Translations under genes and position numbers: made by a program
Part shown: in pieces, positions 12,470 to 13,726 of the stretch
How positions within the stretch are numbered: the first letter of the stretch is position 1
Layout: every line of letters begins with the position of its first letter
Assembly: GCA_016124275.1 (NCBI GenBank)
Contig: WGOA01000052.1
Coordinates: 1-64,000 of the forward strand
From: Bacteroidota bacterium
GTDB taxonomy: Bacteria; Bacteroidota; Bacteroidia; Chitinophagales; BACL12
Reading direction: 5' to 3'
Length of the DNA: 64,000 nucleotides
The notes under the pieces: generated by a model
Told to the model about the DNA's origin: nothing
The model's input: the letters and a program-made list of their open reading frames with translations, nothing else
The model's database searches: none

Positions 12470-13612
12470 TTAATCCGGCCTGACCCAATCTGCATAATTG
12501 CCTGGATGGATCAGCCGGAATTCAGCTTCCGGATAGGTCTGCGCCCAGGCAACGGGAGTTTTGGGCTTTTTTTCGGCGTTCCATTTGAATTCGTAGGCGA
12601 AAAGTTGGCCTTCGCGTTCTTCTACCCAATCAATTTCCTGTTGATCATAGGTTCTCCAGAAATAATTACTGGAAAATACATTGTGGTAATTTTGAAACTT
12701 AATGCGTTCGCTGATCATGTAGTTTTCCCACAGAACACCTTGGTCATTTCGGGCAGAAAGCGGATTGAAGTTGGCGATCAACGTGTTTCGTAAACCGTTA
12801 TCGTGGAAATACCAGCGGCTATTTTTGGATACTTCCTTGCGCAGGTTTTTGCTGAACCCGCCAATGCGGTAGATCACAAATAATTTCGCCAATAGGTCAA
12901 GGTACTTTTCGACCGTATTTTTACTCATGTTTAATTGACGACCCAGTTCCTGGTGCGAAACTTCCTGACCAACCTGAAAAGCGATAAGCTTTAATAACGC
13001 GAGCATTTTGTCCGAAGCCCTGATCCCGTCGATGGCCAATATGTCTTTGAGCAGGTAGTCGTTAACCAGTTCGCGCAGGTATGCCGCTTTGCCGGTGTTG
13101 CTCATTATGCTGAGCAATTCCGGGTAGTTGCCATAAACCAGGCGGTCGTGCAACTTGTCCTTTCTTTCCAAAATGTTTTCTATGGAGTCGTACTCTTGCT
13201 CCGCCAAGGCAAAGAGATTTAACGTGATTTTACGGCCAGTTAAGGGCTCGCCTGTATGTTGCTGGAGATCAAATGATGACGAGCCTGACACCAGAATTTT
13301 CAGCCCTTCGACGTGATCTACTATCAGTTTCAGTTTGGCACCGATGTCAGGTATTTTTTGGGCTTCATCAATCACCAACAGGCTGATGCTGCTAAAGGTG
13401 CTCTTGTAGTGAGCAATGGTCCGGCGCTCCAACAGCTCCTGAGCGGCCAGGTCCTCGCCATTCAACAGAAGGTGCGGCTCCTTGCTTTTTTTGATGATTT
13501 GCTCCAGCAACACGGTTTTGCCTACCCTCCTCGGACCGAGGAGCATAACCACTTTGTCTGTTTGGAGACCCGTAAGCACCTGGGCTTCCACAATCCTTGG
13601 TAGTAAAGGCAT
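12470..13612 (-). CDS. AAA ATPase, DUF4143 type (P-loop + winged-helix + PD-(D/E)XK-like C-terminus)
   Basis: MLLGPRRVGKTVLLEQ Walker A; LLVIDEAQKIPD Walker B; SHQELGRQLNMSKNTVEKYLDLLAKLFVI winged-helix; EIDWVEEREGQLFAYEFKW. Confidence 0.9.
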   Translation of the reverse strand: MPLLPRIVEAQVLTGLQTDKVVMLLGPRRVGKTVLLEQIIKKSKEPHLLLNGEDLAAQELLERRTIAHYKSTFSSISLLVIDEAQKIPDIGAKLKLIVDHVEGLKILVSGSSSFDLQQHTGEPLTGRKITLNLFALAEQEYDSIENILERKDKLHDRLVYGNYPELLSIMSNTGKAAYLRELVNDYLLKDILAIDGIRASDKMLALLKLIAFQVGQEVSHQELGRQLNMSKNTVEKYLDLLAKLFVIYRIGGFSKNLRKEVSKNSRWYFHDNGLRNTLIANFNPLSARNDQGVLWENYMISERIKFQNYHNVFSSNYFWRTYDQQEIDWVEEREGQLFAYEFKWNAEKKPKTPVAWAQTYPEAEFRLIHPGNYADWVRPD

Positions 13613-13636: not shown

Positions 13637-13662
13637 CGACGCAATTTAGCTAAATTAAGTCA
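13637..13662. promoter_or_regulatory. palindromic operator-like site 1 (imperfect)
   Basis: CGACGCA-ATTTAGCTAAAT-TAAGTCA. Confidence 0.6.
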
Positions 13663-13668
13663 ATAAAC

Positions 13669-13694
13669 TGACACTATTTAGCTAAATTTAGTCA
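13669..13694. promoter_or_regulatory. palindromic operator-like site 2 (imperfect)
   Basis: TGACACT-ATTTAGCTAAAT-TTAGTCA, 32 bp after site 1. Confidence 0.6.
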
Positions 13695-13700
13695 ACGTAC

Positions 13701-13726
13701 TGACGCTATTTAGCTAAATAGCGTCA
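13701..13726. promoter_or_regulatory. palindromic operator-like site 3 (perfect 26-bp palindrome)
   Basis: TGACGCT-ATTTAGCTAAAT-AGCGTCA, 32 bp after site 2. Confidence 0.65.

Follow-up and report, generated by a model that had tools for sequence, protein, structure and literature searches.

The stretch of DNA analysed here (the window) comprises 64,000 nucleotides from a Bacteroidota bacterium (assembly GCA_016124275.1, contig WGOA01000052.1, positions 1 to 64,000). Its minus strand carries a gene (12470–13612) for a 380-residue ATPase with an AAA_14 domain, a winged helix-turn-helix (wHTH) segment and a DUF4143 domain, classified as PDC-S01 by PADLOC. In front of this gene lie three palindromic sites which, judged from sequence comparison, very probably form the cognate operator of the adjacent ATPase.

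The sites occupy the region 25–114 bp ahead of the start codon of the ATPase gene (ATG at 13612, minus strand), where the preliminary description of this DNA had placed them. Read on the minus strand, the distal site (site 1, 13701–13726) is a perfect 26-bp palindrome, TGACGCTATT-TAGCTA-AATAGCGTCA, with two half-sites TGACGCTATT. Site 2 (13669–13694) reads TGACTAAATT-TAGCTA-AATAGTGTCA, with half-sites TGACTAAATT and TGACACTATT, and the proximal site 3 (13637–13662) reads TGACTTAATT-TAGCTA-AATTGCGTCG, with half-sites TGACTTAATT and CGACGCAATT. The three identical cores first noticed, exact copies of ATTTAGCTAAAT at 13644, 13676 and 13708 with a period of 32 bp, are present as described. The array had also been called three 26-bp palindromes; all three are palindromic and the third copy (13701–13726) is indeed perfect, but the other two pair at only 10 of 13 positions. 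The flanks, initially given as GACNC/GTCA arms, are better described as parts of half-sites of the form TGACNNWATT, the outermost copy of which reads CGAC. The half-site is a 10-bp unit, NNNNNNAATT, and since 26-bp palindromes are placed at 32-bp spacing, its orientation alternates every 16 bp.

The number of near-matches to ATTTAGCTAAAT in the window is equalled by no shuffle of the window, and in the 3.42-Mb genome the only exact copies are the three of the array. A looser 26-bp pattern allowing one mismatch finds the same three sites and two unrelated matches at chance level genome-wide. Trios of the palindrome scattered through the genome, which would have spoken against a tie to the ATPase, were not seen. 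A global regulon was considered and set aside, the sites in this genome being unique to the ATPase gene. The 12-bp core was likewise rejected as the conserved element, as its centre varies in relatives (TTTAGCTAAA, TTAACGTTAA, TTTACATTAA); the signal resides in the AATT frame and the arms, and the frame conserved in relatives is TGANNNAATT-N6-AATTNNNTCA.

The encoded protein consists of an AAA_14 P-loop domain (Pfam PF13173, E 1.5e-25) followed by DUF4143 (PF13635, E 9.5e-39), and its match to PDC-S01 is full-length (E 3.4e-153). The Walker A motif (residues 26–33, GPRRVGKT; 13514–13537, minus strand) and Walker B (D82 and E83) are intact, with G26, G31, K32, D82 and E83 invariant in 161 of 161 homologs. 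In the AlphaFold2 model, the winged-helix segment spans about residues 197–252 (12857–13024, minus strand; predicted local distance difference test score, pLDDT, 89.7), and the secondary structure of the model places the recognition helix at residues 231–243 (KNTVEKYLDLLAK; 12884–12922, minus strand). A PD-(D/E)XK-like nuclease motif (residues 315–343; 12584–12670, minus strand) contains E326, D328, E341 and K343, which are present in 159–161 of the 161 homologs. Structure prediction and conservation therefore both support the winged helix and the PD-(D/E)XK-like tail of the preliminary description. Because the Walker and PD-(D/E)XK-like residues are nearly invariant, ATPase and nuclease-like activities are probably both needed. 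A sequence search of the PDB with the ATPase gave nothing significant, and NCBIfam holds no model matching it. The fold search returned generic AAA+ proteins only (ORC, RuvB, NLR/Avs5), with ORC subunits and RuvB among the best matches at a weak TM-score of ≤0.45. Only two homologs were found in a scan of viral contigs.

A scan of one genome per species provided a first set of 80 homologous loci, at 55–63% identity. Conservation of the palindromes upstream of other DUF4143 genes, without which the early proposal would have failed, is evident in this set: sites of the TGANNNAATT-N6-AATTNNNTCA design lie upstream of almost every homolog. Palindromic 26-mers are 29 times denser between −250 and +25 than in the distal upstream background (6.04 versus 0.21 per kb). 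Under a strict definition, 81 homologous loci contain 102 sites upstream of the ATPase and four elsewhere (two far away and two just downstream of one ATPase). The 32-bp period is retained as well, with 48 of 55 gaps between successive strict sites exactly 32 bp and most others near multiples of 32. The arrays often contain just one or two sites, which bears on the idea of a replication-origin-like or centromere-like array with the ATPase as initiator or partition protein. An AAA+ protein with a winged helix acting on arrays beside its own gene does recall Orc1/Cdc6 and DnaA, as do the weak fold matches to ORC subunits and RuvB; however, such short arrays, the PD-(D/E)XK tail, which is not known from initiators, and the placement of the loci, which are for the most part single genes on chromosomes, scattered over many unrelated positions and absent from close relatives, make this idea extremely unlikely.

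More distant homologs in Pseudomonadota (28–30% identity) carry direct repeats of AATT plus a hexamer upstream in place of the 32-bp palindromes. The spacing is 22 bp at loci L139, L141 and L143, 44 bp at L140 and 23 bp at L006 (L006:2825–2895). These repeats were mostly missed by the repeat finder and were detected by a shift-match test, in which 0–4 of 100 shuffles match as well. In these few examples, which do not amount to a survey, a private array of AATT-framed sites appears to recur with a different arrangement. Locus L006, on contig C96 of the source assembly, is a second DUF4143 gene similar to those of alphaproteobacteria, and the contig may be a contaminant. On plasmids of two unrelated hosts, a gene for a Fic family protein lies directly upstream of the DUF4143 gene (L137:1–644 and L140:1–978).

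The linkage of array and gene was also apparent when a two-site pattern was searched in 397 genomes of the phylum. Nine genomes matched, compared with none for the reversed control. Of the 11 places, eight immediately precede such an ATPase gene, one is beside a truncated remnant, and two are secondary copies near an ATPase, one (L102) on the other side of an ATPase and one (L095) 4.4 kb from the ATPase array of the same genome. The two-site pattern in this sample is therefore restricted to the vicinity of ATPase genes or a remnant. The remnant, which retains about the last 57 residues of the C-terminus, lies beside an intact two-site array (L106:1021–1272), suggesting that the operator can outlive the gene. 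Near-identical arrays are found on both sides of the ATPase at L094 (1495–1552 and 2744–2801), inside longer imperfect repeats, which suggests either that a tandem duplication was followed by loss or that an insertion took place at an array. One Cryomorpha contig carries two ATPases with different helices (R type and K type), and each locus also has the site type of the other; at L041 the site lies 246 bp upstream of the ATPase, and at L074 sites lie 1324 and 1356 after the start.

Gain and loss can be followed at a syntenic locus between rpiB and a DUF1294 gene in 30 genomes of one genus. Sites are present in all six genomes that carry the ATPase or a remnant, and the remaining 24 lack both (Fisher p 1.7e-6). 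In the nearest relative of the window, the flanking genes are kept and the syntenic place has neither array nor ATPase; a GNAT gene stands where the window has the array, the ATPase and an M48 peptidase, and no precise empty site is available for the window. Such patterns could indicate that the array marks an end or attachment site of a mobile element whose ATPase-nuclease mainly serves DNA movement, by integration or excision: the array is gained and lost together with the gene, an ATPase with an array on either side occurs in one genome (L094/L102), arrays occur without an intact ATPase (L106, L095 and downstream of L074), and the nearest relative lacks both parts. However, loss of the gene explains the solo arrays equally well, as the L106 remnant illustrates, neither terminal repeats nor target duplications were seen, and the sites keep a position set by promoter and start codon. 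Matching element ends on both sides of the gene are not the rule in the 81 loci, with 102 strict sites upstream against two just downstream; a few loci, L094/L102 among them, have both. A main role in DNA movement is thus unlikely.

An indication of what reads the sites comes from the recognition helix. Residues S230-K231-N232 (12917–12925, minus strand), at the start of the helix in the AlphaFold2 prediction, are the putative specificity residues and predict bases 1–4 of the half-site, here TGAC. The pairing is SKN with TGAC in 74 of 78 cases, SRN with TGAA in 11 of 11, SGN or SSN with TGAG in five of five, and DKN or DKV with TCAC in three of four. Within the first set, base 4 follows residue 231 (K with C, 62/62; R with A, 11/14; G or S with G, 5/5) with a normalised mutual information of 0.73, compared with 0.30 for the runner-up among about 380 columns, and two loci with D230 have TCAC instead of TGAC. 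Since base 4 switches label about seven times across the tree, the code is not the signature of one clade. For bases 5–6, no clear single determinant column was found.

Loci fetched later behave similarly: proteins with S-K-N-T and a detected site have TGAC, SRNTV (L179) has TGAA and DKNTV (L165) has TCAC. Further helix classes have half-sites of their own, namely TCTACAAATT for DRATV, CAGCAA/CTGCAA for SRETV and TCGCAA/CCGCAA for DNETV. Proteins with an S-K-T-T helix (L138, L189 and L193) share a different unit, TTGTAAAATTCGCCAATTAA, repeated at 33 bp in L138, and represent a further specificity class. With a detector blind to the arms, which finds a site in 121 of the 161 loci, pairs of loci with the same residues 230–232 have all four bases in common in 90–100% of cases across all identity levels below 70%, compared with 0–8% for pairs that differ at these residues. 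The triplet 230–232 ranks first among 345 triplets of neighbouring columns (difference 0.89, median 0.06).

Because residues of its recognition helix covary with the half-site letters, the ATPase itself, and not another regulator, is the likely binder. A separate transcription factor that controls many genes, the ATPase being just one target, would fit the look of the sites, since promoter palindromes of 26 bp are typical of ordinary regulators; it is nevertheless very unlikely, given that the sites occur only at the ATPase gene in the genome and only at the ATPase family in the phylum sample, and that the half-site letters track residues 230–232 at matched whole-protein identity. We know of no other explanation that yields this pattern of covariation.

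The position of the sites relative to the promoter hints at their effect. In the homolog promoters, the Bacteroidota −7 box, TAnnTTTG, is most frequent at −20 to −40, with 65 of 92 occurrences between −40 and −11, and lies at offsets 14, 46 and 78 from the site starts, in 32-bp register with the array. In the window, a degenerate TAnnTTTG-like box (TAAATTGC) is found at offset 14 in the proximal site and marks a putative promoter. At 27 of 89 loci, a site extends over the start codon, so that the coding sequence carries part of it. One clade (L043–L084) has a site from −10 to +16 that spans the start codon (TGACGGAATT-ATG...TATTTAGTCA), and the first codons are constrained by the operator. Sites that overlap the start codon would be transcribed, as expected if the palindromes were RNA hairpins acting as attenuator or terminator in a leader. 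Many sites, however, are located upstream of the box that probably marks the promoter, and pairing is often imperfect (10/13) where the AATT frame, the 32-bp phase and the match of half-site to helix are kept; hairpins are the least probable of all the explanations considered. Since the sites lie over the promoter and the ATG, repression is favoured, and negative autoregulation is most likely the effect of the array.

Taken together, the cognate-operator reading would work as follows. One winged helix of the ATPase would read each 10-bp half-site, and, because the 26-bp palindromes recur on a 32-bp period of three turns, dimers or a larger AAA+ assembly could dock on one face of the DNA. Since the array covers or abuts the promoter, and in one clade covers the start codon, the bound protein would most likely repress its own gene. 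Operator and gene would be gained and lost together as a single-gene module, each lineage carrying its own helix/half-site pair. The earlier hypothesis that the ATPase recognises its own promoter array is thereby supported in its first part, by the uniqueness of the array, its conservation and the covariation of helix and half-site; autoregulation, unlike the binding sites, is an expectation from position. Physical binding, repression and the multimer geometry are what we infer from array, conservation, gene linkage and covariation, all read directly from sequence.

Several observations weigh against this reading. The AATT-based detector finds no site in 40 of the 161 homologs, mostly a subfamily at about 40% identity. 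The promoter of the window has no exact TAnnTTTG box, and an activator would also place its sites at a promoter. The code has exceptions, such as L031, in which K231 occurs with TGAA; the counts of pairs within the identity bins are interdependent, with relatedness controlled only in part, and changes of the base-4 label on the tree are few, at about seven.

A more speculative and rather doubtful extension is that the array serves as a self-address of the family. The AAA+ ATPase would assemble on it in an inert, phased complex, and a disturbance such as invading DNA or a phage product would release or activate the nuclease, making one polypeptide sensor, regulator and effector. If so, each mobile copy would retain an address of its own through the code of the recognition helix.

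PDC-S01, of which the window protein is a full-length match, is a singleton phage-defence candidate of PADLOC with the AAA_14 and DUF4143 architecture. It is reported among the most common prokaryotic defence candidates, with validation pending for most PDCs (PMC12988326). DUF4143/PDC-S01 ATPases have been reported by the tens of thousands in bacteria and archaea, and a role of the present ATPase in defence has the status of a database candidate only. In the open literature searched, no description was found of an operator array, DNA target, regulation or recognition code for this family, which is one of the commonest uncharacterised bacterial families and a leading defence candidate. From the array, a DNA ligand can be predicted for each member. 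The residue-to-base code can be read from sequence alone and predicts that K231R would shift the preferred half-site from TGAC to TGAA, and derepression could provide a handle for switching the family on to learn its function.

ATPases that repress their own promoter through cognate boxes and a DNA-binding domain include DnaA and P1-type ParA. In contrast to the window ATPase, these belong to different ATPase families and are not known to have a PD-(D/E)XK-like tail or a lineage-variable recognition code. Defence islands can be controlled by separate wHTH/WYL regulators of the BrxR/CapW type, which silence a putative defence gene through inverted-repeat operators; there the regulator is a separate protein, whereas in the window regulator, ATPase and nuclease-like domain would be one polypeptide. 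Of the functional parallels found, archaeal Orc1-2 comes closest; it combines an AAA+ ATPase with a winged helix and binds a short motif in its own promoter (PMC9738581). Orc1-2 is, however, a global regulator of a damage response and has no nuclease-like domain, whereas the sites of the window system occur at their own gene only, as palindromes phased at 32 bp.
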